From assembly GCA_033439295.1 (NCBI GenBank), contig JAVTLE010000015.1, positions 806,001 through 870,000 on the forward strand: DNA of 64,000 nt, written 5' to 3'. This document shows, in pieces, positions 1-30,993 of the stretch (position 1 is its first letter; each line of letters begins with the position of its first letter). Made by a program: the position numbers and the translations under genes. The DNA is from Deuterostichococcus epilithicus (lineage: Eukaryota; Chlorophyta; Trebouxiophyceae; Prasiolales; Stichococcaceae). Under the pieces are notes generated by a model that worked only from the letters and a program-made list of their open reading frames with translations, did no database searches and was not told where the DNA came from.

Positions 1-3000
1 ACCTTCTTCGCTGATGGCGTACGACGCCTCAGCCTCTGCCAGGTTGGGTGCGTCCGCAACCTGAATGCATGATGAGGTAGGCAGTTTCACTTCATAATGA
101 GAATTTTGTCTCAAGTGAAAGGTGCTCATCATCCTACTGCAGCAGGCCGCCGGGCGGGACGACATGAAACGGCATGTACGGTACGAGTGTTGAGGCCACA
201 TCATATGTTGGAGAAAGGTGACATGCATCGTGCCTTCATGACGCGCTGCTCTGCCTTGCCCTTGCGCAGAGACAGCCGGATGGTGGACGCATGCGCAATG
301 ACGTGCCCGCCCACCTGCGCAGCCGTGCGCACATGACATGCTTGACCGCAGGACGCTGAATGCGCAACTAACCTGAAGATGCAGGCTGACCAGCATGGCA
401 GCCTTTGTACAGCATGAGATCGTCGGCAGCGAGTCTCGGGTGCGACACATTTGGAGGCTTTGCAGCGTGGCAGGCTCTGTCAGTTGCCCCGGCCGTCAGC
501 AGCGTGCACGGTGCGAACTCACCGGCTTCTTGGGGTCGGCAACGAACATGGCGCCGCCAGAGGGGTCGGACATGACCTGGTTGGTGATGACCACCGCCAC
601 ATTAAACTCCTCCGAAATCTGCGGCAAGCAGGCATGGAGAAGAGGATGCCAAAGACGCTCTCCTGGAAGCGTAGTACAACTAGCGCTGCACTGGCAAGGG
701 GTGCACACACGATGGAAGCGTGGCAGACAAAGTGTGGACCAGCCTGTGGTCAGCGGGCTGCACCGAGCGTGCTACAAAGTGAGGCAAAGCAATTGGTCAG
801 GCACCTTCTTGAGCCGGTTCATCATCTGGCCCAGCTTCTGCTGCCTGTGGTGGCGGCCGTGTGAGGAGGTGTCAGGACGCAGTTGCAGCACCATGCAAAA
901 TCTGGCACACCTCCGCCAGCTGTCGTAAAGCCCAAGTGGTTCAATGCATGCAACACTGCTGACGATGCCGTCAACGTGCACGGTGGCAATCAGCCTGGGT
1001 GATCCATGCGGTGTCCGGACGGGCAGCGCCACCTTTCCGCGAGCTCGCCGCGGCCGGAGAAGTCGACACGCAGGTTGGCGGTGATGGAGTCCATGATGAG
1101 GAGCTTGAAGGGCTCCTCCGCCATCTTGGCCGCCAGCGGCGTCAGCAGCTCTGCGGATGCACCGGCTTGTCAGAACTTCGCCCGCGCTGCGGACGCATCG
1201 TCTGTCATGCGGTGAAGTCTGATGGCCCCCCCAGTGGCGTCAGCAGTTCTGCAGATGCAGATTCGCTGACAGCAGGGCTTCAATGCCCTGCGCATGGACG
1301 ACCAGCAGGTTTCAGTGGCGCACAATGCATTGGTGACAATGTATTGTGTGATGGGCGTCAGCGGCGTCAGCGGGCCTGCGGATGTGACCCTGATGGAAGG
1401 CAAGGCGTCAGCAGTTCAGCGAATGCAACGCCGGGAAGCGGTCGGCAGCAGCAGCTTAGCTGATGCCAACTGTGAGAACCACACGCATCAGCAGCTCTGC
1501 AGTCAGCATGCTCCACGACCGTCGCCTGTGCAGCGACTGAGCTTGTCGTGTCTGTACATTCGCAAGCAGGTGCAACGGGCCACTTGCAGCACGTGGCGCC
1601 GACGCAGAAAAGAGGCGTCCAAACAACACAGGATCACATAAACAAAACACAACATCTCGAAAGCGAGGGCGGACGCACCCATCTGCTGCTCGTGCGTGTA
1701 CGCCCGCGCATGCACGATCTGCAAGGGGGAGCAATTGCCAGCATCAACCTCAATTCCCTCTGCCTGCGCTAAACATTATCGGCTGAGGCCTGCAGCACTG
1801 CACCGCTCATGCAAGCAGGCGCGACGAGGGTGTCACAGAGGCTGTCAGATCAAGACACACAGATACCGTCTTCGGTCTTGAAGGTCAAGATAAACGCTCA
1901 CGTTCTCCAAAACGGCCTCCTCGTCCAGATTGAAGCGCGCGGCGATGGGTCGGATGCGATTGGGCCGGAAGGTGCCCTCGGTGTCGATGAACGCCACCTT
2001 GCCGGCCCCGCCGCCCATCTCCGTCGGCATCTGGTGCGCCAGGGTAACAGTGCGGCGTCACAGACCGCCATTTGGACGCCCAGAGTGGAGAGACTTTGCC
2101 GTTCAAAAGTATCTCATGAAGATGCAGGCGCACCCGCAATGCCGTGCCCCTGACACGTCCTTCAGCGCCTGTGCATGTGCTGCCAACGGGCGAACTGTAC
2201 TAGCCTGAAATGAAAGACCATGCGCAGCATGTCGAAATGCAGCGCGGCCTCTTCGTACCTGGGTCGTGACGCACAGCGTCAGACAAATCTGCGTCTTGCC
2301 AGTCCTGCAGTGAAGATGTCATTATAAATTGAGAAGCATTGCAGAGATGTATCCCGTTTAATTGCGTGGCAGGCGATGAATGTGCGCTCTATAACGAAGA
2401 GGCGCTGGTGGCTTGGCGGTCGAGACTACTGGAGACGGCATTCCAATGTCGTAAGAAACCTCTGTCACCTGTACTCGCCGAAGATCTCGGTGATGCTGCG
2501 GGACTCGATTCCGCCGCCAAGCAGCTCATTGACAGCCTCGGAGCCCGTCGAGATCTTCACCAGATCCTTCGCCCTCTGCAGCCGGAGTCGAGCGGGTGCC
2601 ATACATCAAGACTGGTGAGCGTGTTTGGGCGGGGCCACACGCATGTCAACGTCAACCAGCAGCTCCTTCTGTCACAAGCCTTGCAACTGCTTGACTTGTT
2701 AGCGGCCCAGCGGCACTTCTACTCAGTATGATCAAGTCTGGTACAGCTGGACCGAACTGCACGATCATGGTCGGCGTTTTCATCAAGGCCGCCGGGCGTT
2801 TTCGAGACTAAAGGGCAGACCTGGCGCTCGACCTCCATGGCGGACTGCCACCCGAAGTTGGCACACATCTTCTTGGCAGCGTCCAGCAGCTTGTCGACCT
2901 TGGCCTCCGACAGCCCCCGGATCTGCGACAGGTTCTGCACCGCCAGGGGCCACCACAACTGCATCAGGGCTTCAGTGATGCAACTCCTTTGATCCCAAGC

Positions 3001-3027
3001 AACCTGCATTTCATCGAAGTATCGAAC

Positions 3028-3060
<33 letters not shown>

Positions 3061-3413
3061 CCTGACAGCACCACAGCGGCGCTGGCAGGCGGGGCTGTGT
3101 ATGCGCACCTTTTTCGTGTTCATCATGAGGCCCTGGCAGGTGTGGAAGCCGGCGTCCTTTGCCTTTTTGATGTCGCCTGCAAGATGATACGGGCGCCCGC
3201 CGTCAGCTGATATGGTCGATGATGTTCGTCTGCCATCCAGCTGCTGCACAAGTGGCTGACAGTGATCAGGTGCTGGTACAGCACATGAGGAAGGTGGCAT
3301 GCAGCAATTCTAGACGAACAGCGTGCACCGCGGTTGATGCCAAGCTGCTCGAGCTTCTCGATGGCATCAAATTCATCGTCCGCCTCTTCCTCCGCCACCT
3401 CCTGCTGCTGCAC
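1..3413 (-). CDS. DMC1: DMC1 meiotic recombinase (RecA/RAD51 family), partial at both ends
   Basis: DMC1 forms filaments on single-stranded DNA and performs strand exchange between homologues in meiosis. Twelve exons were traced, with frame kept throughout: 3329-3413, 3109-3176, 2821-2934, 2469-2575, 2259-2304, 1902-2030, 1679-1718, 1033-1150, 805-844, 523-618, 234-314 and 1-60. The order is an N-terminal HhH domain ([10 protein letters not shown]), a Walker A written GEYRTGKTQ, then [19 protein letters not shown], a Walker B region ([20 protein letters not shown]) and [25 protein letters not shown] and [11 protein letters not shown] identify DMC1; RAD51 has GGN and DSPCLPEAEA. The last few C-terminal residues lie beyond position 1. 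The short first exon was not found: 3413 is a splice acceptor followed by GTG, not a start. The intron at 61-233 begins with GC. No disabling change was seen. Confidence 0.93.
1131..1510 (-). repeat. Degenerate copies of a DMC1 exon 5' edge inside an intron
   Basis: The exon starting at 1150 reads, on the minus strand, acceptor then AGCTGCTGACGCCGCTGG. Upstream in the same intron the same pattern recurs near 1262-1230, 1390-1350, 1430-1400, 1470-1440 and 1500-1485, each centred on a CTGCTGACGCC-like core. The first two copies also keep a CAG acceptor. Similarity tends to weaken with distance from the exon. The spacing is irregular, about 30-120 bp. Confidence 0.7.
3029..3059. repeat. CAG/CTG trinucleotide microsatellite
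   Basis: About ten uninterrupted CAG units lie in the DMC1 intron between the exons at 3109-3176 and 2821-2934. The tract is non-coding in the gene model. Confidence 0.9.
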
Positions 3414-4305
3414 CTGCTGACTTGCGCTGCATGCAGCGGCAAAAGAGCACTGACAACGACAGCCCCGACCATTATGTGCGCATGAAGTTTGCGGCCGTCA
3501 AAGATCGTACACAATCAATCCGTGCAGAGCAAGTCAGTCCAAGCATCCGCCCGAAATTACGCCGTGTACCAAAAGACCAGCGTGCAATTGACGAGTGGGC
3601 TGCAAGGGTGCACCTTTTGGCCAGCTGCTCAGCCATCCTTGCGAGTCGATGCAAGGAGACGGCTGGAATGCGACCTGAGGCCTCCGAAGGCTGCAGAATC
3701 AGCGCAGCCTGCGCCAGCCGAAGCACCTGCGGTGAGCTTTCGGCAGCGGCACTGCTGACGGAGTGTACAACAGTTCTGCAACGTGGCAGCAGCCTCTGGC
3801 CAGCGCAGGCGCTGCAGCCGCGCACTCAAGAAGAAGCCTGGTCAAGTTGCACAGGGTACTCGCTGCTGGCAGACCAGCTGTAACAGTGGGCCAAAACTCG
3901 TTCGACAGCTGCTGAACACCAGCGGCGGGTCCTGCTTTCGCTGGGCGATGTGCAAGCAGGAGGCAACCAGCTGAGCTGTTGCGGAAGCTGGGAGTGTATG
4001 TGCTGGCGTATAACGGCTGGCGATGAGGCTGATGGACATCCTCTCCTCGGCCATCCGTCGTTCATATTGCGAATCTGCCGGGGGAGTCTCCCGCGGAAGG
4101 GTCCCACCGAATAAACCGCCTTCTTGTACACAACTCTGCCAACACGTTGGAGCCTGTTCTCGTGCATTACAGTTGGCTGCGTTCGGGTGCAACAAGGTCT
4201 TGAGCGCATCATGCCGGCGATGCAAGACAATCAAATCGCGGAAACTAATGGGTGTGCCGCCAGCCTCACAACCGGCAGCTGTGTCCAGCACGTCCAGCGC
4301 CCAGA
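3414..4305. other. Spacer between NAA15 3' end and DMC1; should hold the missing DMC1 first exon
   Basis: Both neighbours are transcribed on the minus strand. The spacer should contain the NAA15 3' UTR, the DMC1 promoter and the short DMC1 first exon. A TGTAA element (the usual green algal poly(A) signal) lies on the minus strand near 4166-4170, about 140 bases past the NAA15 stop. I could not choose among several possible first exons for DMC1. I see no other gene. Confidence 0.5.
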
Positions 4306-7300
4306 CTATGTCAACTTCAGGCTTTCGACGCCGTTGGCCAGCCCATTGGCTGCCGCCGCCGCCTCCACTGCCTTCTCCAGCGGCAGCCGCTTCTGGCCGT
4401 CAAAGTATGGAGACCACGCAAACTTCTCGCTGCACCGCTGCTTCCAGGTGTCTGCCGCTGCCGGCGCCGCCAGCTGCTCCCGCAGCAGCTGGTGCACCGT
4501 GACACAGTCATCGTGCTGCAGCGGCAGCGCCCCCGACTTGGTGCCTGCATGCAACCAGTTTGCTGTCCACATCAGCACTGCGCCTGGCACCCTTCAAGAT
4601 GCAGTTGGTGTGCGCCGACTTTGGGGTGGAGAGTGTGCCATTATGAGAGGGGCATGCATCTTGCTGCGGGCCATTCTGCACCATGCATGCAGATGCACAC
4701 CAGCTATGTGACACACCGCTCCTTCACCGCATCGCTGTGCCTCAAGCATCACCTGAGAGGATGAGCTGTGCTGAGGCCTCCTTCCGGCTGGGCTCCAGCA
4801 GGGCGGCCGCCTCCGCGGCCGCTGCCAGGTGCAGCAGCGACGCAGAGCTGTGCTGCTGCGCGTACTGCGCCTGGTACTCTGGCAGCGGCCGGCTGCCCAG
4901 CACCTGCTGCAGCTGCGCACCGATCACGCGCTGCACCACCTCCGGTGACGCCTGCAGACAGGAAACCAACTGAGAACCACCCTCGCAACAACGTACCGCC
5001 ATCAGCAGGTGAGAACACCCACCAGCGACCAAAGGGTGGCAGAGAGCAGTACACACGCTGCATGCATGCGGCCGCGCGATGCCCACTATGCCCAGCGTGC
5101 TTTCAACGCCAGTAGAGCGGCGACAGGAGTGCAGTAGACGGTCACCGGGGCGCTGCCGTCCGCCGCCTGCGCCTTGAGGGCGAAGCGCACGACCATGCGG
5201 TGCGCCGTCGGGTGGCCCGCGCCGCCGAGCGCGAGCGCGCGCTTGACGGCGGACAGCGCCAGCAGCAGCTTCCCCTTGCGCAGGTACACCTCGAAGGCCC
5301 AAAGCTGCGTCTCCAGCCTGCAAGGCGATTGCAGAAGCTGGTGGTCCTCTTGTAGAGCAAAAGCTCATATGAGATGGGAGCAGCTGCTCTTGCGCTGGCG
5401 CAGGTACACCTCGAAGGCCCAAAGCTGCACTTCCCGCTTGCGGGGCGATTGATGCAGATGGAGAGCGAAGCGACTGCCACCAATGAACCAATGAAAAGAT
5501 CGATGAACCATGCACCCGCCACCACACACGAGTGCTCCTCCCACAGGCGTCAGCTGCTTGCGAGGCGTGCTCGCACGCCCACCTGGTGTCTGCATGCTGC
5601 TTGAGCTTCTCCAGCAGCTTTGTGGCCTCGCCCAGCGGGTCGGTGGTCGCCGCCAGCTGCTTGCCGTCTGGGTCCGGGTCCGCCTTCCTGCGTCAGAGGC
5701 AACAGGGCGACGTCATCGCCAGACAGCAGCAAAACCACATTCAAAACTGAGCCGCAAAGCCGTGTTGGGAGAGCTGCTGGCAGGATCCCTTTGCGGTCTC
5801 GAGCTGCAGATCAAAACAAACCTTGCGGATGCCACCTGTGGCGCTGCCACACAGCACCCCATTCTGCGGCGTACCTCTTTGCTGCGGCTGGCTTCTTCGC
5901 GGCTGCCTTCTCTTTGGCAGCGGCCTCGGCAGCCGCCGCCTCTTTGGCCCGCGCCTCGTCCTCCCGCTTCTTCTGCTTTGCCGCCTCCTTCCGCTGCTGC
6001 TGCTTGTGCTTCCGCCGCTCCTCCGCCGACATTGCCTCGACCCGGTTGGCCTCCTCCTGTGCGCCAGCGGACAGAAGTCTTGCAGGGGTGTTTTAGGCGG
6101 GTTTCGGGGGAGAAGATGTGCTATACTAGCAGTCATCCTAATCCAGACAGGTTTGCAGGGGTTTAGGTTCATGTTTGGTGCAGCTTCTTTCCTGGGTGCA
6201 TGCAGCCTGCCGGTGTGAGCCGAGGATTTTGGGCAGGCACATTTTGGGCAGGCACAGCACACAGCAGTCACTCTGCGGGAGTTCAGCCAGCGACTATGGC
6301 CGACACACTTGAAAGCCGAGCTGCTGCTGTCGGCACCTGCGTCGAGCCGGATGGCTTGTCATGAAGGTGCACGTAGGTCTGGATGGCGCAGTATGCCGCC
6401 TTCACGTATGGCACCGCCGAGTGCAGCGAGTCCTCCTGCAGGCGGCAGAGCCACAAAAGTCTTGAATGCGAGTGACTTGCTGGCAGACTGCTTTCAGTGT
6501 GCGGTGACGACGCCACCAGCCGCCCTGTGTGGCTATGGTGTGCCCCACGGGACCTTGTGCTGGCACGCACCATGCGCAGCATGTCGATGTAGGCGCGCAG
6601 CGTCATCTTGCGGATGCAGTAGCCGTGGAAATCGAACTGGTCCTCGTTGATGTCGAAGAAGTGCTTGCTCACCGCCAGGAAGTTCTTCAGCGCCTGCGCA
6701 TCAGTTTGAGGCAAAAAGGGTCAACGTGCTGATGAGGCTCTGCGAGATCAATGCATGCAAGTGAGACGGTCGGGGTATGACTACGAGATTCATTGTAGGG
6801 CCAAAGAAAGACAGAGGCGGGTCCCAGCGTCAGATCGGATACAGTGTACAGCGGCATCCGTCAGGCAATAAGCGGAAAAGTAGGACTCATTTCGCTGTGA
6901 GGCGATTGATTTGCATAGTGATCATCATAGGACACGCCGTTCATGGTTGCGAACCAAACCGCAACAGGTTGCTTGCATGCAGGAAGGCGCTAGAGCCAGT
7001 ACCAAGCTCAACATCAGCTTGCTCACAGCATGACAAAGGTATGTGGCGTCCGTCAGGCAATAAGCGGAAAAGTAGGTCTCATCTTGCCGTGAGGCAATTG
7101 ATTCGCATAGTGATCATCACAGGACTCGCCATATGCACCAGGAGCCAGTTTGGTGAGGGCTGCAGCAGTGGGGTGTGTTGTTGTGGCACAAGAAGTTGTA
7201 AGGCAGGACCGAAAACTCACCTTGCCATACTCGCTGCGCCGCAGCCAGGCGCGGCCGCACTCGATTTCGTACCAGGTGCACTGCATGTCGAAGAGGTTGT

Positions 7301-10300
7301 TGACCTGGTCCCCGTCTTTGGTGAACATCGCCGCAGTCGCCTCCGCGCCCTCCACGTCGCCCGCCCGGAACTTCCACTTGGCTGCCGTGCTGTTCAGGAA
7401 CCTGCACATGGAGTGCGGGTCAGACAGTCGAGTGGACGTTGAGTGCACTGTATGACGTACGTGCGCTGTTTGGCTGATCGAAAACAGGGCATGCTGTTTC
7501 GCCAGCCGCGAGGCTGCTCCACCAAACTCGTCCGCCGCTGTGTTGTGCTGCCGCCAGGACAGCAGGCCTGCAAGCGATCAAACTGACAGTGCCCAGCTGT
7601 CACTGCGAAAGGAGACGTCGCTCTTCAGGCCACCCGCAGGCAAAGTTCCTAGCCTGCAGGATGTCCAAGAATGTGAAGCCCACCTGTCGGCAAGGTCCAT
7701 GCTGCGAGCCTTGTCGGCGGCCGCCGCCGCGCCCTCCACATCGCCGGCGTGCTTCAGGATTTTGGCCTTCACCATGTACAACTCGATGAGCGTCGGCGTG
7801 TGCTCCGTGCACTGCTGCAGCAGCTCCAGCGCCTTCCCTGTGCGGAGCACAGCAGAGCGTACAGCAGAGAGCCGGGCGACGATGCCCCTTCCCTGGACCC
7901 GCCGCTTGAACGATGCACGGTTGCCCTGACGACTCCTCACCTCACTCACAGCATGGCATATGAGGACCTTGCGGAGCTCGGGCGTGCCGGTCCGTGCTGT
8001 GGCGTGCCTGCTGGAGCAATGGTGCTGCACCTGTGTCGCCGAGGCGGTCGTGGTGCTGCGCCAGGTACACAAGGGTCCACAGCTGCGCCTCCGGCGAGGC
8101 GGGCGTTGCCTGCGACTCGCCGGCCAGCTGCGGGAAGGCGCTGTCCGCCACGAGCGCGTCCAGTAGCCGCTGGAACAGCGCGCCCAGCGCCTGCGGGGCG
8201 GTCGGGAACGGGTGTCTGCGAAGCTGAGCCGCCAGGGATGGGGGGAGCCAGCATCCAGCGACTGTCTGGACAGAGGCCCCGTTCCAGAGAAGGCCTGGCA
8301 AACAAAGGGCGACACGACTGATTGGGGTTGGTGGCATGACAGTCATGCCAGGACGACAGGATGGTGACCATATCAAACTGCTCACCTCTGCCTTCGCTGT
8401 GTCCACATACAGGGACTTGAGGTCCGTGAACAGGCTGGGGATGCCCTTCTGCAGGAAGCGCCGAATGTACGCCTCTGCTGCGGCTGTGAACCCGTCTCCC
8501 ACCTGCACGCAGGCCGGATGATCGGGTGAGAAGGGTACGGTGCTGCAATTGTGCTCTGCTGGCGCTCCCTGGGGCAGTGGCCCCACAGTGCTCATGCACG
8601 CCTCTTCATACTGACTGTGGAGGCCGCAGCCGCCTCCTGTCTGGGCAGCCAACTGCTGATTCTGGCAGCCAGCCTTCCCAGCCGGCCAACCCGCAGGAAG
8701 CTCTGCTCTCGTGTGCTCGATTCTTCCCCTGTCCACCACGTTTGTCTGGCACTGAGGGAGGCCCGGCATGCCATCGCATGCCACCCACCTCAAAGTCGAG
8801 TGGGATGCGGAAGGCGGCGGAGCTCCTTGGGTGCGCCGCCTGCAGCTGGACGTACAGCTCCCGCAGCCGCGCCCGCTGCTCGTCCGTCAGCGCCGCCGTG
8901 CTGTCGCCCGGCAGCCCGAGCGCCTCCCGCAGCGAGGTGTGGTACCGGTAATTGTCTGGCGTGTCCGCCACTAGCTCCCTGCGGAGTCCCATTCCAACAA
9001 ACGTTGCATGGACTGCATGGCCTGTGTGCCGGTGCTGACGTTCCCGGAGCATCCTCAAATGCAAAGTGAAGCGCCAGCCAGCAGGTCGCAACTAGCAGCG
9101 CAAACCTGTTGTGGCATACAGAACCTGCTGTATGCCGGGCCGGGCCTTGAGCAGGAGCTGCGAGTGGCACCTGTACAGCTTCTCGGCCTCGGCGCTGCGC
9201 CCCAACTGCAGCAGCAGCTGCGCCCTCATCTCCCGCGCGCTGAGTGCGTCCAGGATCTTGTCCTGCGGCACAAGCAATGGGTGTTGAACTGATACCTGTT
9301 GATTTGTGTCCAACCTGGCTGCTGCCCAGCTGCGGGAGGATGTTTTGTATCAGCTGCCCCACAGCACGATGGATGACCTTTTTGCGACCGGGACGCCTCC
9401 TTGTCTGGTGCCTGACGCTCTCAGCACAAGCGTGATTGCTGAAGAAGCAGAGCCTGGCTCGCAGCCAGCAGCGCGATGCGCCCCAGACCGCCAGCATCAC
9501 CCACTGGATCCCCGATAGCTGTCCGGCTCGAGCAAGCGCGACTGCTCCTCAAGGTCCACACCCGGCTGGCGTCCGCCACCGGAGTGCTTCGGCGCTCGCC
9601 GGCCCTCCAGCAAGACGAACACTTGCTGGTCACCCCCGGCGCCCGCCTGTCGGTTGGACCCTTGCGGTGTTGAGACACGAGCACGACCCGCTGTCGACCC
9701 GCACCTGGCTGGAGTTCAGGAGCGCAAGCGCCTCGGCGGCCTTGCCGCCCTCGGCCAGCACGGAGGCCTTGTAGAGCACCAGCTCGCTGCGCTCGTAGGC
9801 TTCTGAGGCCGGCTCCTCCTCCTGCGTGTTCTCGTACGCGTCCAGCACCTGGGCGGCACAACGTGAACCACAAGATGTGGGACCACGGCCAAGCATGCCA
9901 CCCTTTGCCGCTTGATTGCAAAGTCCTTAGACAATATCTGCGACCGCCAGTGCAGTGCAGGCATGCGCAAGGCACCCCTCTGGCATCACAGGTCCTTGGC
10001 CGCTGACCATCTGCTGCCCAGCATGCCAGGCCCGCAGCTGCGTTGACAGGCAGCTGTGATGGAAGGCGCACGTTCACGGCCAGCTCGTAGTTCTTGTTGA
10101 GATGGTGTGCCACGGCAAACGAGATCCAGTTGTTCCGGTTGGCAGGCTTCAGGATCAGCAGCTGGTGCCGCGTCTCCACAAAGCCGGAGATGTCCCGCAG
10201 CTGGATCTGTGTCCGGAACCAAGGTGACCGCATGAGGAAACGTCGAAGGCTGGGGCGATTTGGTTGGTAACCAGGTCAAGACTTGCTGCAGCCATGTTGC

Positions 10301-16310: not shown

Positions 16311-18808
16311 CTAGGAACTTGCCAGCGCACTGCGCCAGTGTGGACGGTGCTGCAGCTTGCCCCCGGGGAGCATTTCCCATGCCGTGTCCACCTGCACAGA
16401 GGCAAGACCTGAGTGAAGCCATTTCGTAGGCCCACAGAACAACAGTTCACACGAGCTGAGGTGAGCAGCCTTGCGAGACATGCACCTTGAAAGTATGCAT
16501 GGCAACAGCGCCGCACCTGATCCGACAGCTCGTGCAGGTCGTGGGAGACGACCACTATGGTGCACTCCTGCTTCAGCTTGCCTGCACAATCCACACGGCG
16601 GCACCGCTCAGGGCCAATGCGCATTGTGGCAAGACTGTCGCACACGTCATTAGTCCATCTGCCTTTGAGCAGCAGCTAAGAGCGAAGGCAACTGATTGTA
16701 GCACGAGGACGCGGCGCAGGGCAGGTGGTCGTCAAGAATGCCTCGGCGCCTGCACTGCAGCGTCAAGCTCGCGCAGCGGCGCGCACCCAGCAGGTCGGCG
16801 ATGTCAGCGCGGCCGCGCCAGTCCAGACCTGCAAGCGGCTCGTCCAGCAGCAGGACTGACGGTCCGCGCGCCTGTAGACGCAATCACAAGAATTCGACTT
16901 CAAGGGTCGAGCGCCGATGAGGATGCGCAAGATCGCACATGGAGTCAAATCCGAGGCTGGCGCGCGGGCTGCGGACAGCCCTGCGGCACAGCGCCCTTGG
17001 GCGCGCAGGGAGGTGGGGCGCGAACTCGCTCCGGGACTCTGCATCGACCAGGCGGGGATGATAGCAAGCCTGACACGCCGCTGGCACCAAGCAGCGGAGG
17101 GAAGGCCGTCGCCGGGCGCCGCACCAGCTGCACGGCAAGTGCCAGGCGGCGCTTGTAGCCATCCGACAGCGAGTTGGGCGACGCCTGCAGGTCCAGCCCG
17201 TCCAGCCTCACTGCCGCCAGCACCTGGAGTCGAATTCACAGCCGAGTCCATTCTCGTGGACCATGCAATGATGGATTGTGTCCTGCTGTGACTCCTACTG
17301 GCGCCTGCAAGTCCAGCCTGTCAAACCCCTGGAATCGACTAGGATTAATCAGAGCGAGCAAGGGCATGGATGATGGTTCGACATCCATTGTGTCAGGAGG
17401 GCACCGCGGACGTCGTGACACGTGAACAGAGTCCGACACGTCCACAAGCCAGGTGAGCGGCGCCTGGGCGGGTGGCAGCAGCATTGGCATACTTGAGCCG
17501 CCATTGCCTACCTGCTGGTGGCCTGTGTGCTGCTGCGTCCGTCCCAGAATCAGTGCCACACATGCCGCGCTACACTTGTCGAGGCTGCTCCTCGAGGAGC
17601 CCGCTGCAAGGANGGAAGNNNNNCCTTGCCCAGGCGCAGCGACAGCTGCTGGCGGGCGAACAGGTCCTCGGGGCGGCCCGGCCAGCCGAAAGTCAGCTCC
17701 TGCTCGATGGTGCTGCCCAGAAAGTGGCGCTCTGGAAACTGAAACACCAGCCCTGTCTGCGCCGAGCGCGCCGCTGCGGCGAGCCCGCTGCCGGCTGTGG
17801 CGCCGCCGCCCGCGCTGGCGGCGCCGGCTGCGCCAGCGCCGCTGCCATTCATGCCGCGGTTGCCGCCGCCGCTGCCGCTGGCGCCATTGCCGACGACAGC
17901 TCGGCCCGCAGCCGCGGCTGCCACGGCCGCGACCGCCGCAGGACCAACAAACACGTCCCCGCTGTCGTGCTGAGCCAGGCCGCCGATGATCTTCAGCAGC
18001 GTCGTTTTGCCCTGTGCATCAGAGCTGAATGGACTTGAGCAAGATGGCAAGATGGCAATGGCCAGCATGGACCCTCACGCGAGGCTGCAAGTCCACCGCA
18101 TCATGTGATCGCCACAATCATGCAACCGATAGCTTGTGCATGAAGTACTCAATTCGTCACGTGGGCTTCTGGAATGCACACCGCGCCGCTGCGGCCGTAA
18201 ATGAGACCCATGCGGTTGGCGGGCAGCTGCATGTCGACACACTGCAGCAGCGGCGCGCTTGTGCCTGCACACAGCAGCCGAGATGTCCCATCACCACACC
18301 TTTGGTCCTGTCTGTGTCTCCAGCCTGCCCATCTTGGACGCCGGATTTGTGGGGAGTAACATACCCACATTGCGAACAGGACAACTGCGGTCAACACCAA
18401 TTGCAAGGGACAAGCCGAGGGTGCACCTGGCGGCTGGTACGTCAGGTCGCTGACCGTCAGGGCTGAGCCGCAGGGCGCCTGCCTGCTGTTCTGGCTCTGC
18501 TGCATCATCTGGCTGAGCATGTTGAGGAAGCCGCCGACGGCGTTGGTGTCTGCGCCGCCGCCGGCCGCGCCGCACGCCACGCCGCCCCGCAAGCCCGCCA
18601 CTGTGCCGCCGGCACGGGCTGCCATCACGCCGCGGGTGCGGGGCGTCGCCGTGTCGGCAGCAGCAGGGCAGCGTTGCCGCTGCGGCGGCAGTGCTGTCTG
18701 CAGCGGTGCCGTGCTGCGACTGTAAAGGCTCGCTGTTCGACGTCCGCCTTGTGACTGATGCTCAAGCTCCATCTGCCGGCGCGGCGCCGCGCTGCTGAGG
18801 ATCGCCAT
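16311..18808 (-). CDS. Plastid ABC ATPase, ABCI11/NAP14-like (ECF-type)
   Basis: A soluble ATPase of the plant/algal ABCI group, like Arabidopsis ABCI11 (NAP14), implicated in plastid metal or transition-metal homeostasis. The start ATG at 18808 opens a Ser/Ala/Arg-rich leader (MAILSSAAPRRQ) that looks like a chloroplast transit peptide. Then come GSALTVSDLTYQPPG, Walker A IYGRSGAGKTTLLK (split by an intron), the Q-loop region VFQFPERHFLG, the signature SLSDGYKRRLALA, Walker B SVLLLDEPLAGLDW and the H-loop VVVSHDLHELSD. The end is DTAWEMLPGG, with the stop at 16311. Oddities are an inserted Ala/Gly-rich stretch of about 45 residues between Walker A and the Q-loop, and Asp for the second Gly of LSGG. 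An N run at 17613-17623 sits on a probable splice donor just after SLRLGK. The gene lies 58 bases downstream of the next gene on the same strand. Confidence 0.88.
17190..17335 (-). repeat. Partial copy of an ABC-ATPase exon edge in the adjacent intron
   Basis: The exon part encoding RLDGLDLQA (about 17190-17215) has a relative at about 17300-17328 in the intron immediately upstream in transcription. On the plus strand both read GGCGCCTGCA/GGCGACGCCTGCA followed by AGTCCAGCC or GGTCCAGCC. The match is short, roughly 25 bases with a few differences, so this is less certain than the other cases. Confidence 0.45.
17613..17623. other. Undetermined bases (assembly ambiguity)
   Basis: There is one N at 17613 and five at 17619-17623, at the exon-intron boundary of the ABC ATPase gene. 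Single Ns also occur at 48384 (subtilase intron) and 57533 (coding, Gln-rich gene). Confidence 0.99.
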
Positions 18809-21509: not shown

Positions 21510-21713
21510 GTGGTGGAGAGGCCGGCATTGCACTTGACATGTCGGAAGCTGACTGCATTTTGACAACCTACCATGCTCTTGTGGTCTATCTAGGGCATGA
21601 CAAAGCATGACTGGACACGAGCGGACCTCACGATGCGCATGCCTGTCCACACAAGCTTCACATTGCGTTTTCCGAGCTGTGAATGCGAGGTTATCTCCTA
21701 GCGTGCCAGCACC

Positions 21714-22832
21714 ATGGACGGCGACCAACCGCCCGAACTGCGATGCCCTGCAGTGCGAGTCACCGGCTTCCAGCCGGCGAGTACGGACGTCAGCCCGAAT
21801 TCGCACTGCAGCACAGCATTTTCAGATGCGTCCAGCCCCACCAGGCGTCGGGTGCCGGCCAGCCCGCTCTCGGCGCTGCTTCGCAACGGCACCGGCGGCA
21901 GCAACGGCATGGTTGTCGGGCATCAAGGCCTGCCGAAGCTGCGCCTGGGCAGCAGAGGCTTTGGCGGCAGCACAGGGGGTGACGGCATGAGGAAGAGCAG
22001 CAGCTGCCTGCAGCTGCAATCGCTTTCGGAGCTGGCTCCTGCGGACGATGGCCCTCTTCGTTCCGGATCCTGCGTATTCGGCACAGCCAGCAGCCCCAGC
22101 GTCTCGTGCCCCGTGGACATACCCACACCCAGGTATAACTCCCCTACATCGTGTTGGCGGTGGTGGAATATGTGCACCGCCTTCGCTTGCCGTCACGTTT
22201 TGGAATTGGCCCCCCAGGTGTCGATTCAGTTTGTGCAACCTGTTGGTCGGTACCATTCGGCGGCGGCGGCGCATGCAGCTGGCAAGCATGCTTTCTGCGT
22301 GCTGTGAAGCGGATGTCGTGCCTGTCTTTGTTTACAACATCACGTTGTTGTGGACTTTCAGGGCGCCGTCATCCGGGCGGGCGGCGTCTGATGGCTCTTA
22401 CTCGGAGGAGCACCACCATGCCGCGGCCTTCGCCCAGCCTGTGGCATTTCATCAGCAGCATCACCACTGGCAGCAGGCCGCCTTTCAGCAGGTCTGGATG
22501 CACGCATGCATGCATGACTGACATGAAAGCAGCCAACATGATTTTAGGTCATCTGGCATGCATGAGAATCCGCAGAAAGGTCCGGCTCTGCTCCGCAGGC
22601 CCACGAGCAGCATGAGGCGCAGAATCTCAGCCAGCGGCAGACGGACAGGAGCTGTGCAGACAGCCCGGCACGGCAGAATGCCACCGAGCGGCGACACTCA
22701 GCCAGCGGCATCCTGCCGGACGGCGCGGTTTTCGATCTGGAGCCGTCATCGCTGCCGCGCTTCGGCAGCGGCCGCCTACATTATGGACGCGCCCGGTCGC
22801 AGAGCGCTGCCGTGCTGTCCGCCTACGCCTGA
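21714..22832 (+). CDS. Unknown protein, Ser-rich N-terminus and Gln/His-rich centre (260 residues)
   Basis: No family is recognised. Three exons keep frame: 21714-22132, 22362-22491 and 22599-22832, 783 bases in all. Residues 1-140 are low-complexity Ser/Pro/Gly (for example SNGMVVGHQGLPKLRLGS). The centre is a His/Gln run (EEHHHAAAF, QQHHHWQQ). The C-terminal third contains SASGILPDGAVFDLEPSSLP. No signal, transmembrane or catalytic motif is evident. It begins 205 bases after TFIIF-beta on the same strand. The composition resembles disordered regulatory or RNA-binding co-factors, but this is only a guess. GT-AG sites and unbroken frame across 1.1 kb support a real gene. Confidence 0.6.
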
Positions 22833-23636
22833 CAAGGACGGGCGTCAGCGCGCCCCGGCGCGGCACATGTAGCACCACCGTTTTGCGATTGGGCGGCAGC
22901 ATGCGAGCGCGGCGGGGCGAGCATCGCCTCGCCCCACCTATTCTGGAATGTACATATCTAGGCTACGCCACGGGCTGGCACATGGGAACCCTGCTTGCAG
23001 CAGCGATTTACAGCTTTGCCCCCAAAACCCTATGTGGCGCCACGCCTTTGGGCGTGCTGCGTCCTCAGCTCAGGAGGAAACCGGCACCAGTGCTCTCGCA
23101 TGCCACTCGGTAGTCTGATGCCCGAGCTCGGCACGGATTTTGTCAAGCACATCGCATTGATTTTTCAGCCGAGCTTGCAATTTTTGTATGGATGTCACGC
23201 CGTGTTCGACACGGCGAGCATGGACATGGATTGTGATTGCCTCTTGTGATTGCTTGTGCATCGCCTTGTAATGCACACCAGCGTTGTTCCCAGTGAGGAG
23301 CAGATGTCAGCAATGTGTGTTGGTGGGCAGTATTCGTACACCAAACCTGACGCCATCTGTTTTGACTGGAGGTCAATACCCTACGCGTTTTCCATCTCCA
23401 AGGGGCAAGGCTGACTGGACCCGAGCAGACTCGCACTTTTTTGGGACGAGTGATTGCACGGATACGCACCCGAGCTGATGGCGCTCGTTGCTCCGGCTGG
23501 AAGATCCATGCCGCAAGTGGCCCGTTGCTGAGCAGTGGCCTCGTTATCTGGCTGCTGAACATTCAGATTGCACATCGGCTGCCATACCCGGTCGGCCTGG
23601 TGGCGGCACAGGGCTGCGAGCCCCCCTCGGCTCACC
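22833..23636. other. Spacer upstream of the trehalose gene
   Basis: About 800 bases lie between two plus-strand genes: 3' UTR of the unknown protein, then the promoter and 5' UTR of the trehalose gene. No open frame with recognisable content and no RNA gene was seen. Confidence 0.5.
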
Positions 23637-26600
23637 ATGATGAAGTCGATGGGGGGGTCCCTCGGAGGTTCATTCAGAGACTTGCAGGCCCTGGCGAGCG
23701 GCAACTACGGAGGGCCTGCTGGAGGCATGGACCTGGATGGAGGAGGGCCCCTGTCTTTCAGCGGGCCGCGCGCCCGCGGCTCCAGGACTTCAATCGACAG
23801 CGGCGACGCCAGGCCCAAGAAGCGGTGAGCCGCGTGGTGTCACTCCCTGCGACCTAGGCGCTCCCATGTCAGCCACCAGCGCGGCGTGCCTGAGCCCTGT
23901 TGCCAATGCTTCGCAGGCTCATACTAGTGTCAAATCACCTGCCGATCAAGTCCAAGCAGTCGGAGGACGGCGGCATCTGGGACTTTGAGTGGGACGAGGA
24001 TGCGCTCATCGCTCAGGCGCACGTGCGACTGTTCACGACTCCATTGCAGCGGCAAAGCAATGTCTTGCATATTTCTATAATGATGGTTCGTCATCGAGTT
24101 ACACACAGCCCACTCCTTGGCCATTGACTGGCTCTGTTGAAATCATGCCTCCTGTGATGCAGGAGGGTCTGGGCGCGGACATCGAAATCCTGCACGTTGG
24201 CACGCTGACGGTGGAGGTTGAGCCGGAGCAGCAGGAGGTAGTTCGTGTGTGTGTTGGGCTAATAAGCCGGCATATTCACAAACCCATATGAGAAGGCCTC
24301 GCTGAACATCGCTATTGCCAGACCTATCACACGCTGGGGTGCCTGCGGCTGCAGGCGGTGGCGGTGGAGCTCTTCAGCACCTACCAGTGCTACCCGGTGT
24401 TTCTGGGCAAGGAACTGAAAGAGGAATACTACAAAGGTGGGCCATACGCAGTTTCACATGCTTTTCCTCTTCACAGACGCTGGACGCTTGCCTCTGGATG
24501 TGTGCCATCCTGTGCCGCATGTGGCACCCAGCCGCTAAGGTCGATACTACTCAAGGTCCTTGAGCGTTGTCCCGCCCTCACATATCTGCAGGCTTCTGCA
24601 AGCAGCAGCTGTGGCCGCTCTTTCACTACGACCTGCCGCTGTCGCCGGCCAGCTCGGGTCGCTTTGACCCGGCCCTCTGGCAGGCCTATGTCAAGGCCAA
24701 CAAGGTGCCTGATTGTTCCCTGTGGCTTCTTTCCTTGTATTTCCGTTTTGTTGCGGAACTTGTTCGAACAGTGAACATCTTGCTGACGGACAGTTGCAGC
24801 CTGTTCAGCAACCATACCTCGCCCATCCTCTGCCTGAGTTCTTTGGCCGCCGCTCATCCTGACGCCCCAAAACCACTTCCCCCTCTGCAGGCCTTTTCGG
24901 ACAAGCTGGTGGAGATCGTGAACATGGACGACGACTATGTGTGGATCCACGACTACCACCTTATGGTGCTGCCGTCGCTGCTGCGCAAGCGCTTCAACCG
25001 CGTGCGCTGCGGCCTATTCCTGCACTCGCCGTTCCCGTCCTCGGAGATCTTCCGTACGTTCCCCAAGCGGGACGAGGTGCTGCGGTCGCTGCTCAACGCG
25101 GATCTCGTAGGTAGGCAATACAACGCAGCCCGCAAGAGTCGTATTTACGGGGCGTCTGCCCCTTGTTGCGGACACACACCCATGACTCGCAGCACCTGGG
25201 TGCTGCTGAGACGGCGCCCTGCTTGCATGGACGCACTGAGCAGCAGGGGTTGCACCCGATCGGCATGCCACTTGCAGACACGCCGGTGCAGACGCGCCGC
25301 ACCAACCCTGCAGGCTTCCACACCTTCGACTACGCGCGTCACTTCCTGTCCTGCTGCTCGCGGATGCTGGGCGTGGAGCACGTCACGTCCCGTGGCGCCA
25401 TCATGCTGGAGTACTACGGCCGCAACGTTGGTGTCAAGATCATGCCCACGGGCGTCAACTGCGACCGCCTGCTGGCGGGTCTGCGATGGCGGGACACCAT
25501 CTGGCGGCGCGGCGAGCTGAAGGTGCCGCGCTGCTGCCTTATCTCTGTGCCTGCTCTTGGCCGCCGGTTGGCCGGGCGGCCAACTGCGTCAGTGTATGTA
25601 TCCGTTGCGTATGCTGTCCTTGGGCTGCCCAGTGCCCAATTCTCAACCTGGGGGTGCCTCCTAGCTGTTAACCGCCTGACGCCTGCATGGCAATGACATT
25701 CCCGCTTCAGGAGGAAATGTTCTTGTAAACAACCGGCGCTGATCTGGACAGACGGCGTGATTGGTGTGATGTCTCCCGACAACCACAGTCGCAATTGCAA
25801 GGAGCAGACGGTGCCGATCGGCGTGGACGACATGGATCTGTGCAAGGGCATCGAGCTGCGCCTGACCCTCCTCTTCAACTATGAACTCGCAGGCGCAGTT
25901 CAAAGACCAGACGGTGCTGATTGGCGTGGACGACATGGACCTGTTCAAGGGCATCGAGCTGAAGCTGCAGGCGGTGGAGCGCCTCCTCGAGCAGCACGCC
26001 GACTGGCGCGGCAAGCTGGTCCTGGTGCAGGTCACCAACGCCCCCCGGTGAGCACAGGGGTTCTGGTCCACCCTCTGCGGTTCGACACGCTGGGCAGGTC
26101 AGGCAGTCGTGTGTGTGTGTGTGTGTACGCCCTGCAGCGCACCGCTGCGCATCTTTAGCTGGCTCTGGCAGGAACGGCAGGTGCGGCCAGGCCAATGCAG
26201 GCGCTGAGGGCGTGGGTTGGCAGTGCCGGAGCAGCGGGCGCCGCAGGCCATGTTGGTGGTGTGTCTCAGCAGAGGAAGATGCTGCTGTCGCAGGTCCTCG
26301 GGCGCGGACATCACGGAGCTGCATAATTACTGCGTGAAGCTCGTTGAGGATATCAACAGGCGGTGCGTCCCAGGCTGTGCCGCTGGCCCTTCCTGCGCAG
26401 CCGCGTGACCAGTGTTTGGGCGAAGTGCTCCAGTGCCATGAAACGAGTGGGGCAATGTTAACTCACGAGTTGGGCGATGTGAACTCGTTTGGCACCCTGC
26501 GCTACAGCAAACAACCTGCCTGAGGCCCTGTTCTGACTTGCCTGATGCTCGCAGCCTGATCTGAAAGCACACGTTCAGGGTTACTCGCAGCAAAGCCGAC

Positions 26601-29600
26601 ATGCGTCGCCGCAGGTATGGCACGCCGACATACAAGCCCATAGTGTGGCTGGAACGCCCAGTGCCGCTGTACGAACGCATTGCGCTGTACAGCATCGCGG
26701 ACGTGGCGGTGGTCACCGCCACGCGCGACGGCATGAACCTAGTCCCCTACGAGTACATCGTCTGCCGCCAGGGCGCCGATGTGAGCAGTCTAGCATCTTC
26801 GAGAACCTAGTTCTGATGCTATCCATGTCAGAATGAACTTGCAGCCTACGTTCGCCTCCTGGTGCCATCGCATGACATCTGTCGTGGCCTCAGCGGATGG
26901 CTATTCTGGCGTCCCAGCCTTGCATCGCTGTCCTTGTTGAGGGTGCCTATGCAGCTGCCTCGTGAGTTGACAAGCCGCTTTCAGCAGCGCAGCTGCCTGT
27001 CATGTGGCGCAGGAGGCTGACAAAAACAAGGAGGCGACATCGTCCATGGTGGTGGTCTCCGAGTTTGTGGGCTGCTCGCCGAGTGTCAGCGGCGCGATTC
27101 GTGTCAACCCCTGGTCCATTGACAGCGTGGCAGACGGCATCTACACAGCCATCCAGGTTGGTTGTCTAGGGTTGGGGGTGAACACCCTGTGCCACTCAAT
27201 CAAACCACTCACCCATGCACCTGCCGGCTTTGCTTCGACATGGCAGCATTGCGGGACCCCCCGGGGGCGCCTTGACTCAACAGCCGACGAGCTGTTACTG
27301 ACCCAACCTAATGCTGTGATCCGCCATCCAGATGCCCGCGGGCGACCGGCATCTGCGCCACGAGAAGCACTGGCGCTACATCAGCCAGCACACCGTGGGC
27401 TACTGGTCGCAGGTGCGGTCGCTGTTGCCTGTCCACTCATTCCATCATGGAAGCGACTGCCTTGGTCGCTGTGGCATCGATTGCCTCTGGTCCTGCAGGC
27501 AAAGGCTTGTGAACGGCAGCCTGCATCACGACTGCCCTGGCGCGAAATTTCCAAGGTGTTTGCCACCAAGCTTGCTTGGCCCCCCACGGATGTTGCGATG
27601 AGTGCAGAAGCTGTAAGCTCGCAGCTGCTGCTTCCCAGCGCTGACTTCCTGCGCCGCTGCAACCTGACGGGCATTTTCCGTGCTGTGTCCGCCGCGCAGT
27701 CGTTCACATCGGACCTGCAGAAGTTCACGCGGGAGCACGGCAAGATGAAGTGCTACGGCCTAGGCCTGGGCCTCAACACCTTCAAGATGGTGGCCCTCAC
27801 CGAGCACTTCCGCAAGCTGGAGCTGCCGCACCTGCTCACCGCCTACAGCCGGTGGGGCTTCCACCTGCCGTTTGCCGCTCCCACACCGCGGGACGCTGGC
27901 TGTTGCAGTTATGCCCTTACACGGCTGCTTGTTGCTGAACGCCAATGTGCCCATTTTCCCAGGAGATTGTGTGCGAGCACTACTGAGTGATTGTCCTCTC
28001 AGGCCAAGAAGAGAAATCTGTCTTGCGCTCACTCACGCACAATCGTGGTGCTGACCCGCAGGTCCAACCGGCGGCTGTTCCTGCTGGACTACGATGGCAC
28101 GCTGCTTCCAGCTGCCAGCATCTCCACCAAGCCCAGCCGCGAGGTGCTGGACATTCTGCGGGGGCTGACGGGCGACCCCAAGAACGACGTGTTCATCATC
28201 TCGGGACGAGGCCGCAACGAGCTGGGCGACTGGTTTGCGTCCGTGGTGCGTGTTTCCTGCCCCCTCTCGTTTCAGCTACCGTCAGCTACTGTCACAGGAG
28301 TCAGCACATGATCCCTGCCTCGTGTTGGCAGCCTCGGATGCGGAGCCTGGCTGCCCCTGCATGGGCCCCTCGAGGGCTGCGCAGGGCGCCGTCGGATGTT
28401 GGCCAAGTCTCAGGGCTGTCAGACTCGCATCGTTGCCGCTCTCCAGACCTCAATCACCTTCATCGTCGCCCACTTTCTGCGTCCTGAAGACACACCCGGC
28501 TGGGGCTGGCAGCAGAGCACGGCTTCTTTCTGGTCGCCGTGTTGAACTGGAATCATATGAGAGACTGGCCATTCAGACACAGGGCCGGCTGGGGCTGGCG
28601 GCTGAATTTGAACAGCTCGTGTTAAGATTGACGGCAGGAAGGCAACCACTGCAACGTGCAGGACCGGCTGGGGCTGGCGGCGGAGCATGGCTTCTTCTTC
28701 CGGGCACCAGGCGCGACCGAGTGGGAGGCACGCTTTGGGGAGCCGGACGAGCAGGCAGCGTGGAAGGAGATGACGCGCCCAATCCTGGAGCTGTACACCG
28801 AATCCACCGACGGCTCCAACATTGAGGCGAAGGACTCGGCGCTGGTGAGTGCGAGAGACATGCGTACCGCACCAGAAGGATAGCCACTGAAGCAGCTTGG
28901 CTGTTGATGAAATGCCCCGTCCTGGAGCTGTACATGAAGACTGACGGCTCCTGTATGGAGGCTGAAGACTGTGCGCTGCAGCAGACTCTGCGCAACTTGC
29001 TCCCCCCCGCGTGCGGCTGCTCTCCGAGACTTCAATCCGCGACTTCTTCTCCCTCCGGTCATGGCGCTGCAGCGGGTGCAGGCCCTGGGGCCCTGGGCAC
29101 CAGCAACCCAAAGGGGACTACAGCAGGTCAAGGGCACTCAGGCTCACCCTCGTGGCAGCCGGAGGAGACCTCAAGTGCATCAGGCCGCCGCACTCGACCG
29201 TGCCGCCCCCATGACGATGCCTGGATCATGGAACCCTGCCGCTGCTGCGCATGTATGGCACTACAGGGAGGCGGGGAACGCTGGCCGGAGGACCCCGGGG
29301 TGCTCATTGTGACTTGTTCGTCGCCTCCGGCGTCGCTGTTGACACTGTGAACTCCACATCTGCCGCAGGTGTGGCACTACCGGGAGGCGGACCCAGACCT
29401 GGGCGCCTGGCAGGCCAAGGAGCTGCTGGACCACCTGGAGGGGGTGCTGGCCAACGAGCCCGTGGAGGTCATCTCTGGCCAGTCCATCGTGGAGGTCAAG
29501 CCCCAGGTGCGCATGCGTGCCCCTTCCGCGCCTTCAGTCTTCTTTCCACACTCTGCTCGGTCCGTCGTGAGGCCAACGAGCCCGTGAGGTCATCTCCGGC

Positions 29601-30993
29601 CAGTACATCGTGGAGGTCAAGCCCCAGGTGTGCATGCGCGGCCCCTCCGCGCCTTCAGTCTTGCTTCCTTCCCTACTTTTCTGGGCCCCTCTCGAAAACC
29701 CACGAGCCTGTGGAGGCCACCTCGGGCCCGGTCCATCGTGGAGATCAAGCCCCAGGTGCAGCTCTGCCCCTGGTGTCCACCTCCAGCACTGTGCACTCTC
29801 AGGGCAACCTTCCACCCTCCTTCCACAAGCGCAAGCGTTTGTTGACCCAAAGCACGTCTTCTGCGGCCACCAGACGACCTGCTTTCGATGCTGGCCTTGC
29901 AAGCATTCGTGTCCTCTGGAGGCAGGCCTTCGACCGCTGATCTGAGCTAGGTTGAGCTGCCAGACGCCGGGCATTGAGGGCGCCCGCTCTGAGGCGTACG
30001 TCCGACCATGCCATGGTGCAGGGTGTGCACGCTCAGCTCCTGGCACCACTCTCTTGCTGGTGCCGTGCTATTCCAGCAACAGAGCAACAGAGACTTATGC
30101 TCTTGTTGACTCTCACTCCTGTCGTCCACCTCGCCTCCGGCACGGTCAGCTCACCACCAACAGTGTCCCACCGTTGCGCAGGGCGTGAGCAAGGGCGGCA
30201 TGGTGGAAGCCATCCTGACGACGGCGGCGAAGACGGGCAACGCGCCGGAGTTCGTGCTGTGCATCGGCGACGACCGATCTGACGAGGACATGTTCACCGC
30301 CATGGAGCACGTCACCTTCTCGCCGCACCTGCCCGCCGAAGTGGGTTTTGACAAGTTTTCTGAACTCTGAGAGGTTGCTTAGCTGGATTTCTTTCCAGGC
30401 GTCTCAACTGCAGTCCTACCCTCATGAGAGCCCTCCATCTCGGCAACCAACGCTCGGCCCGCTGCACGGCGGCTGCAGACTGCCTTCCACATGGGTATGT
30501 TATATGCCTTTCTTTCCTTTTGTTTTGGTGGTGTTTGGTTTGGTGCATCAACAATGCTGGTGTTCCTCCACAGGTGTTTGCATGCACGGTCGGGCAGAAG
30601 CCGTCAAAGGCGCCCTTCTATGTCAACGACACGGTAAACACATTCACAGGCGTTACAAAACCTGCCGCACGCATGACTTCAGTGTGCACAGCGTCGCACT
30701 GCAGCCGACAACTGCAGCCGAGAGACCTCTGCGATCACCAGCCTGCACGTCGCCTGCTCCTGCTGTTCTGCTGCGCTTGGATTCTTGGATGGCTTGCGGC
30801 GATATGGGAGTTCCCTGATCTTGCCACTCATCCCCCCATCCTGGCCCTGCAGGAGGACGTGCTGTTCACGCTGGCGCGGCTGGCGGAGGCGTCGGGAGCG
30901 TCGCCGCTGAGCCTCAACACCGTGCCGTCCGGCCAGTACGGCCTGGTCCAGCGTACAAGCATGTCCGACGGGCGCGTCCCGCAGTCCGCATGA
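23637..30993 (+). CDS. TPS: Class II trehalose-6-phosphate synthase/phosphatase fusion
   Basis: A GT20 synthase domain is fused to a HAD phosphatase domain, as in plant TPS5-11. Nineteen exons were traced from ATG 23637 (MMKSMGGSLGG) to the stop at 30993. Synthase part: LILVSNHLPIKSKQSEDGG, GFCKQQLWPLFHYDLPL, WIHDYHLMVLPSLL, FLHSPFPSSEIFRTFPKRDE, MPTGVNCDRL, IGVDDMDLFKGIELKL and DGMNLVPYEY. The DDMD-type segment is the class II form; class I enzymes have an Arg two residues after the Asp. Class II synthase domains are often catalytically weak and regulatory. Phosphatase part: LFLLDYDGTLLP (nucleophile Asp), IISGRGRNEL, AAEHGFFF and CIGDDRSDEDMF, so all HAD catalytic motifs are present. VNDTEDVLFTLARL lies near the end. 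Several introns carry copies of neighbouring exon edges, listed separately. No stop or frameshift was seen in the exons. Confidence 0.95.
25745..25975 (+). repeat. Duplicated exon segment ahead of trehalose exon 8
   Basis: Exon 8 starts at 25893. About 104 bases upstream, 25790-25866 is a near-copy, with GGCGTGGACGACATGGA and AAGGGCATCGAGCTG identical. A third, weaker relative lies near 25745-25775 (AGACGGCGTGATTGG against AGACGGTGCTGATTGG). The middle copy translates to IGVDDMDLCKGIELRL without a stop, but in a different frame relative to exon 8. Confidence 0.88.
26109..26126 (+). repeat. GT dinucleotide microsatellite
   Basis: Nine GT units in the intron after trehalose exon 8. Confidence 0.9.
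26443..26486 (+). repeat. 22-bp tandem repeat, two copies
   Basis: ACGAGTGGGGCAATGTTAAC and its next copy ACGAGTTGGGCGATGTGAAC, each followed by TC, lie in tandem in a trehalose-gene intron. Confidence 0.85.
28493..28700 (+). repeat. Three copies of the 5' edge of trehalose exon 15
   Basis: Exon 15 begins at 28662 with GACCGGCTGGGGCTGGCGG. Copies lie in the intron before it at about 28497 (CGGCTGGGGCTGGCAGCAGA, followed by GCACGGCTTCTTT) and about 28583 (GGCCGGCTGGGGCTGGCGGC). They are about 80 bp apart. The farther copy retains the AEHGFF-encoding part. Confidence 0.88.
28778..28990 (+). repeat. Copy of the 3' edge of trehalose exon 15 in the following intron
   Basis: The end of exon 15 (about 28783-28842, encoding ILELYTESTDGSNIEAKDSA) has a diverged copy at about 28920-28980 that would read VLELYMKTDGSCMEAEDCAL. 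The intron copy is offset by about 137 bp. Confidence 0.82.
29251..29395 (+). repeat. Copy of the 5' edge of trehalose exon 16 in the preceding intron
   Basis: Exon 16 starts near 29370 with GTGTGGCACTACCGGGAGGC. About 117 bases upstream, near 29253, the intron has GTATGGCACTACAGGGAGGC, with an AGGACCCC stretch after it. Confidence 0.82.
29460..29770 (+). repeat. Three tandem ~122-bp units derived from the 3' end and donor of trehalose exon 16
   Basis: Exon 16 ends with CATCGTGGAGGTCAAGCCCC then AG and donor GTGCGC at about 29508. Copies containing the same end, donor and about 30 intron bases lie at about 29582-29660 and 29708-29775. The second copy matches closely (GGTCAAGCCCCAGGTGTGCA); the third is more diverged. 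Confidence 0.9.

Follow-up and report, generated by a model that had tools for sequence, protein, structure and literature searches.

Local copies of exon edges, in the same orientation as their source, occur in a few introns of a 64,000-nucleotide stretch of the genome of the green alga Deuterostichococcus epilithicus (contig JAVTLE010000015.1, positions 806,001 to 870,000; hereafter the window). They lie in the genes for DMC1, NAA15, an ABC ATPase, a trehalose gene (TPS) and a PAP/fibrillin protein. These copies exceed their controls, reside in longer introns and have decayed in a neutral-looking way. They are real, and in our assessment they are likely to be ordinary: random short local duplications, spliced out of the transcript, would suffice to explain them, with no need for a special intron-growing process. 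A first-pass annotation had described outward duplication of exon edges as the general pattern of introns here. Exon-edge duplication is not a general rule of introns in the window, since it was found in 8 of 133 introns, where the summed offsets amount to 1,400 of 29,002 intron bases (about 5%). All counts refer to this single window, to nine events and to gene models built without transcripts. The models comprise 15 genes, 148 exons and 133 introns; the median exon measures 122.5 bp and the median intron 195 bp.

Introns and their own exon ends

Each of the 133 introns was compared with the 60-bp ends of both flanking exons, giving 266 own pairs. Exon ends at distances above 3 kb (32,012 distant pairs) and the reverse complements of the own pairs (266 inverted pairs) served as controls. 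A score of at least 30 was reached by 8/266 own pairs, by 16/32,012 distant pairs, corresponding to 0.13 expected in the own set, and by none of the inverted pairs; at a score of at least 26 the numbers were 9/266, 112/32,012 (0.93 expected) and 2/266. With 60-bp ends, nine ends in eight introns scored higher than all of the distant exon ends with which that intron was compared. The eight local copies listed by the first-pass annotation (DMC1, NAA15, the weak ABC case and five places in TPS) all beat the distant controls, and a ninth was added in the intron 36132–36384. That annotation had expected introns to match their own exon ends better than random ones, which is borne out at the top of the score range, but the excess of own over distant pairs is limited to 9/266 ends. 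The remaining 257 ends showed no excess, the mean p of all 266 being 0.53, and p fell between 0.005 and 0.05 for 5 ends against about 12 expected from 266 tests.

The test was repeated with end length and scoring varied in six settings, with the rule that an end must beat every control, by which about 1/266 is expected by chance in each setting. Between 6 and 11 ends stood out per setting, and 0 to 2 among the inverted pairs. NAA15 and the TPS introns beginning at 25523, 28246 and 29507 were stable in all six settings; the intron at 36132 and both ends of the TPS intron at 28845 stood out in four, and ABC and DMC1 in three. Three extra ends, belonging to the introns 35354–35478, 3177–3328 and 60970–61415, stood out in one setting each.

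Self-BLAST gave a similar distribution. Same-strand segments of at least 35 bits numbered 12 within 500 bp, several of them from one family, and 4 at all larger distances. Of the three inverted segments of that strength, two lay within 500 bp and were self-palindromes, and the third lay at a larger distance. When the exons were divided into 40-bp tiles, intron matches with a score of at least 26 were found for 8/266 tiles at 0–40 bp from the edge, then for 4/218, 1/137 and, beyond 120 bp, 0/152; the inverted control gave 1, 0, 0 and 0 in the same bins. Every tile match (13/621 tiles) therefore lies no more than 120 bp from the exon edge, a reach expected for units of such size. Among these matches, those in introns 60970 and 42242 (score 27) are weak and do not belong to the nine cases, and the tiles missed the case at 36132.

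Three other sources of such matches were considered. Common composition or a shared splice motif is rejected as the cause by the distant-pair and inverted controls. A dispersed repeat or mobile element is disfavoured within the window by the rarity of distant matches at score 30 (16/32,012). Duplication of whole exons is also disfavoured, the matches being partial and the nearest offset smaller than the source exon in 8/9 cases; the exception is ABC (120 versus 99 bp).

The copies

Identities between copies and exon edges range from 66 to 92% in the alignments, and the self-BLAST offsets from 79 to 266 bp. Each copy repeats the end of the exon that flanks its side of the intron, including the splice junction where this can be aligned. 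Acceptor sides are in excess (7/9), which is not significant (p 0.18).

In DMC1 (minus strand) the source is the 5′ edge of exon 1033–1150, that is, 1124–1150 together with about 11 bp of intron. The adjacent intron, 1151–1678, carries three copies between 1218 and 1430 (1218–1293, 1352–1384 and 1404–1430), with 70–85% identity, two of which keep the AG acceptor. Another DMC1 intron contains a run of about 10 CAG at 3029–3059. In NAA15, also on the minus strand, the intron 5318–5582 holds at 5379–5461 a copy of the 5′ edge of exon 5146–5317, with 80% identity, an offset of 118 and the acceptor AG lost. Neighbouring NAA15 exons share a 27-bp match (7338–7364 and 7722–7748) that encodes similar GDVEGA motifs, perhaps reflecting TPR repeat similarity rather than recent duplication. 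The ABC ATPase intron 17224–17629 (minus strand) has a weak copy of exon 17125–17223 at 17302–17375, the best core being 21 bp (17302–17322).

The TPS gene lies on the plus strand. In its intron 25523–25892, the segment 25781–25858 repeats 25884–25961, which spans the acceptor at the 5′ edge of exon 25893–26047, with 86% identity and the AG kept. Intron 28246–28661 has two copies of the 5′ edge of exon 28662–28844 within 28488–28605, of which 28488–28538 has lost the AG and 28575–28605 has kept it. Intron 28845–29368 is affected at both ends: 28892–28978 repeats the 3′ edge of exon 28662–28844 (74%, donor GT lost), and 29215–29298 the 5′ edge of exon 29369–29506 (67%, with a 27-bp core at 89%, AG lost). 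In intron 29507–30181, two copies (29571–29685 and 29699–29800, together 29571–29800) repeat the 3′ edge of exon 29369–29506 and its donor with a period of about 122–125 bp. In the alignment, three units of about 122–125 bp follow one another nearly head to tail over 29449–29800, each with a donor site.

The ninth case is in the PAP/fibrillin gene model (minus strand), where 36193–36218 in the intron 36132–36384 is a copy, at 85% identity, of 36070–36095 within exon 35936–36131. An intron of the same gene model contains a 17-bp minisatellite of 3.8 copies at 35708–35771.

The junction itself could be compared in 11 copies (three in DMC1, one in NAA15 and seven in TPS), one of them only through its sister copy. 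The ABC and 36132 copies are clearly aligned inside the exon only, with seed matches that end 21 and 36 bp within it. The earlier description of all copies as containing or adjoining splice sites is thus not confirmed.

Splice sites, divergence and intron length

The AG or GT is retained in 6/11 comparable copies, namely two in DMC1 and those at 25.8, 28.58, 29.63 and 29.75 kb in TPS, and is lost in the other 5/11. Splicing at a retained acceptor would include an extra 98, 225, 103 or 79 nt, with a frame shift for 98, 103 and 79 and a stop codon in the additions of 98 and 225; the retained donors, at 29627 or 29755, would likewise bring in a stop codon. All six retained sites would thus cause a frameshift or a premature stop, and there is therefore no sign of their use as new alternative splice sites. 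Differences between exon and copy were spread over codon positions 1, 2 and 3 as 22/180, 19/179 and 30/179 (p 0.25, several copies of one exon being counted separately), and 8/13 copy alignments contain indels. This looks like a neutral copy beside a constrained one.

A decay of the copies away from the exon had also been described. Over 13 copies, identity had no relation with offset (rho −0.01), and within the three multi-copy families the picture is mixed. In the alignments, identity falls with distance from 92 to 82% in the 28.5-kb family and from 86 to 77% in the 29.5-kb family; in these two of the three families the more distant copy has diverged more, in favour of that description, but this is not so in DMC1 (70, 85 and 85%). 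Self-BLAST segments of the same families gave 92 then 91% (28.5 kb), 82 then 87% (29.5 kb, where no fall is seen) and 88, 85 and 85% (DMC1).

Affected introns have a median length of 411 bp versus 192 bp for the rest (p 2e-5), a comparison that does not control for longer introns being more likely to contain a match, whereas the own-pair test controls for this intron by intron. After subtraction of the duplicated bases the median of the affected introns is 264 bp (p 0.07 versus the rest). Local duplications that overlap exon edges have probably made these introns longer. The first-pass idea of intron lengthening is in this respect sustained; a special outward mechanism directed at the edges is not, since simulation of random placement yields an edge share of 62–67%, to be set beside the 9/11 observed.

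Origin of the copies

We propose the following course of events. Short same-orientation local duplications would arise at arbitrary positions with offsets of 79–266 bp, probably mostly head to tail at birth, through a step of break repair or slippage. Where a unit lies over an exon–intron junction, the frame-keeping junction would be spliced and the second copy would stay in the intron, leaving the protein unchanged and the intron longer by one unit, while the surplus copy decays neutrally. Exon-interior units would mostly be purged by selection, and intron-interior units would fade faster, as both of their copies drift. What remains would mimic an outward copying of exon edges. Units of 79–192 bp often overlap an exon edge because exons measure about 120 bp and introns about 195 bp; the survivors look outward because the protein survives only if the extra copy is spliced out; and detection tilts to edge cases because pairs with one conserved copy are easier to find. 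A minority of introns in the window would have been lengthened in this way, and the outward look can be explained by splicing, selection and detection alone.

The edge and interior events were compared using only the best self-match of each intron, at score 28. Short-period matches with offsets of 21–22 and 34 bp (introns 35598–35935, 2935–3108 and 26363–26614) and three introns with an edge-derived self-match were excluded; counting the short-period matches would lower the edge share. On this basis there are nine edge ends and two intron-interior pairs with an offset of at least 70 bp, one strong (NAA15 intron 6694–7220, score 127) and one borderline (H2A intron 62676–62998, score 28). Random placement is supported by the former, because it is an intron-interior duplication of the same size. 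If units of the observed offsets are placed at random, 43% straddle an edge and take in 20 or more exonic bases, a further 9% straddle one but take in fewer than 20, 28% fall within introns and 15% within exons; when decay and detection are simulated, 62–67% of the detected edge-or-interior events are at edges. The observed 9/11 is not significantly higher than model shares of 60% or 65% (p 0.12 and 0.20), nor are the 8/10 counted by introns (p 0.17 and 0.26). In plain geometry with the edge detectability doubled, the expected edge share is 70% (p 0.14 for the 9/10 that remain without the borderline pair).

Several results weigh against random head-to-tail duplication, and they bear on the alternatives as well. 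Without the borderline H2A pair, 9/10 events are at edges, which gives p 0.046 and 0.086 against shares of 60% and 65%, and p 0.018 against the 53% expected from plain geometry without decay. Half of the affected introns (4/8) are in the single gene TPS, where 4/18 introns are affected versus 4/115 elsewhere (p 0.012, or 0.07 allowing for the choice of gene), and a local duplication hotspot in this gene is possible. The strong NAA15 pair, spread over 6825–7135 with its core at 6853–6938 and 7045–7130, includes no exon part and is not head to tail: 86 bp match at 90% identity with an offset of 192 bp, most of the remaining offset shows little or no similarity, and none of 17 score-matched simulated tandem pairs was as short. 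Either spaced copying or an interrupted tandem may account for it. In an unmatched simulation tandem units align nearly end to end, with a median of 2–4 bp unaligned, whereas every observed pair outside the 29.5-kb array has an unmatched part of its offset that measures about 30 to 105 bp or more. Even in a score-matched simulation with larger indels, in which the targets for two weak cases were chosen by hand, 7 of the 8 edge cases tested remained below the simulated tandem median of match length, although all eight were compatible with decayed tandem units (P 0.07–0.82).

From the latter results, spaced rather than tandem local copying, such as templated insertion during break repair, gains some credit: it would account for the NAA15 pair and for the short matches of the edge cases, and is compatible with random placement. 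Set against it are the near head-to-tail three-unit array at 29449–29800 in TPS and the fit of the tested edge pairs to decayed tandem units once scores are matched, and we consider it unlikely. A duplication process directed at exon edges, as a general way of intron lengthening, could draw on the share of 9/11 or 9/10 at edges, with its low p against plain geometry, and on affected introns twice as long as the others. It is nevertheless quite unlikely, given that 8/133 introns and about 5% of intron bases are involved, that the other 257 ends are at chance, that 9/11 lies within the simulated edge share and that identity does not fall with distance overall. A slight preference for edges is possible and is not established by the counts. 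The bolder proposition that short duplications in this lineage are biased to exon–intron junctions, for example by transcription- or splicing-coupled breaks, with a notable route of intron lengthening and a hotspot in the trehalose gene, appears decidedly improbable; if true genome-wide, the bias would connect splice junctions with local duplication and provide material from which new splice sites could arise.

Two further explanations give the copies a different meaning. Their retention for a function as decoys or as alternative splice sites, for instance in poison isoforms tuning DMC1 or TPS, would agree with the AG or GT kept in 6/11 copies and with the three acceptor copies in one DMC1 intron, but the loss of the dinucleotide in 5/11 and the neutral-looking differences by codon position (p 0.25) make it very unlikely. 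The birth of the introns themselves by tandem duplication of an exonic AGGT segment, the Rogers model, involves a similar type of event, known in other eukaryotes according to the part of a review that treats it (PMC3443670). By our reasoning its geometry is the opposite, since it would place a copy of the downstream exon's start at the intron's 5′ end and one of the upstream exon's end at its 3′ end; the copies found here are those of the exon end of their own side, and this origin is extremely improbable. Random short local duplication with removal by splicing is accordingly the reading that we retain.

Gene models and other repeats

The gene models came from a self-trained gene finder and were filtered, and merged models were split by hand. 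Exons shorter than 34 bp were dropped and unstable stretches (such as 21.4–23.7 kb) omitted, all before any test. Intron borders are all GT/GC...AG, as the gene-finder model requires. The GC content of the window is about 0.61 overall and 0.57–0.71 across 2-kb steps.

These models are supported by Pfam. Matches were obtained for 10/10 proteins of a first set, including Rad51/DMC1 (8e-106), the NatA auxiliary subunit NAA15 (5e-180) and, in TPS, a trehalose synthase domain (5e-154) and a phosphatase domain (1e-75); the other families of this set were ABC, SDR, HhH-GPD, KIN17, TFIIF-beta, CSD/RRM and subtilase. In a second set, 3/6 proteins had matches, to PAP_fibrillin, HAD hydrolase and histone H2A. 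The style of the genes and the presence of PAP_fibrillin suggest a green lineage with plastids. With NAA15 and TPS as queries, no relative was found among viral contigs. Against genome contigs, NAA15 matched four loci, three archaeal and one bacterial, at 25–28% identity, which could not serve the present comparison.

An exon of a low-complexity protein, which has no Pfam match at E 0.001, contains an in-frame 66-bp (22-codon) tandem duplication at 38657–38788 with 90% matches. This coding unit is the longest-period tandem repeat reported by Tandem Repeats Finder and counts in favour of duplication at arbitrary positions.

Comparison with known systems

The first-pass annotation knew of no standard description of such copies. 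A tandem genomic duplication across an intron–exon boundary has in fact been published for an RdRp gene of potato, in which a second duplication of 83 bp is wholly intronic (PMC4974935). As in those acceptor-side copies of the window whose junction can be aligned, the duplicated segment there covers the 3′ end of an intron and the start of the next exon; unlike here, the surplus copy in potato became an inserted exon piece with a new intron, whereas in the window it lies inside a longer intron (PMC4974935). Among the titles and opening parts of abstracts listed, with few subscription papers covered, no paper was found that names exon-edge duplication as a rule of intron growth.

Tandem duplication of exonic AGGT segments is treated as a route of intron gain in the relevant passages of a review (PMC3443670) and in the introduction of the potato paper (PMC4974935). 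The cases described here resemble that route, as those passages present it, in being short internal gene duplications that interact with splice sites, and differ from it in that AGGT duplication creates a new intron, with the opposite geometry. The route has reportedly been described by Rogers (1989), Gao and Lynch (2009) and Hellsten (2011). Spaced local pairs in the same orientation, which the NAA15 intron pair resembles, have reportedly been described in a published study as well, and the finding that tandem duplications are the commonest short insertions is said to go back to Messer and Arndt (2007).

Small tandem duplications, local, in the same orientation and shorter than about 100 bp, are given as the commonest short insertions in the pertinent passages of two papers (PMC2654908, PMC8355091), and a mechanism by fill-in of breaks is outlined in the corresponding part of the second (PMC8355091). 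These passages concern human and mouse cells and do not consider exon edges, and their mechanism would apply to the window cases by analogy (PMC2654908, PMC8355091). The window cases are local duplications over splice junctions, an event of a known kind, which here has a longer intron as its outcome.

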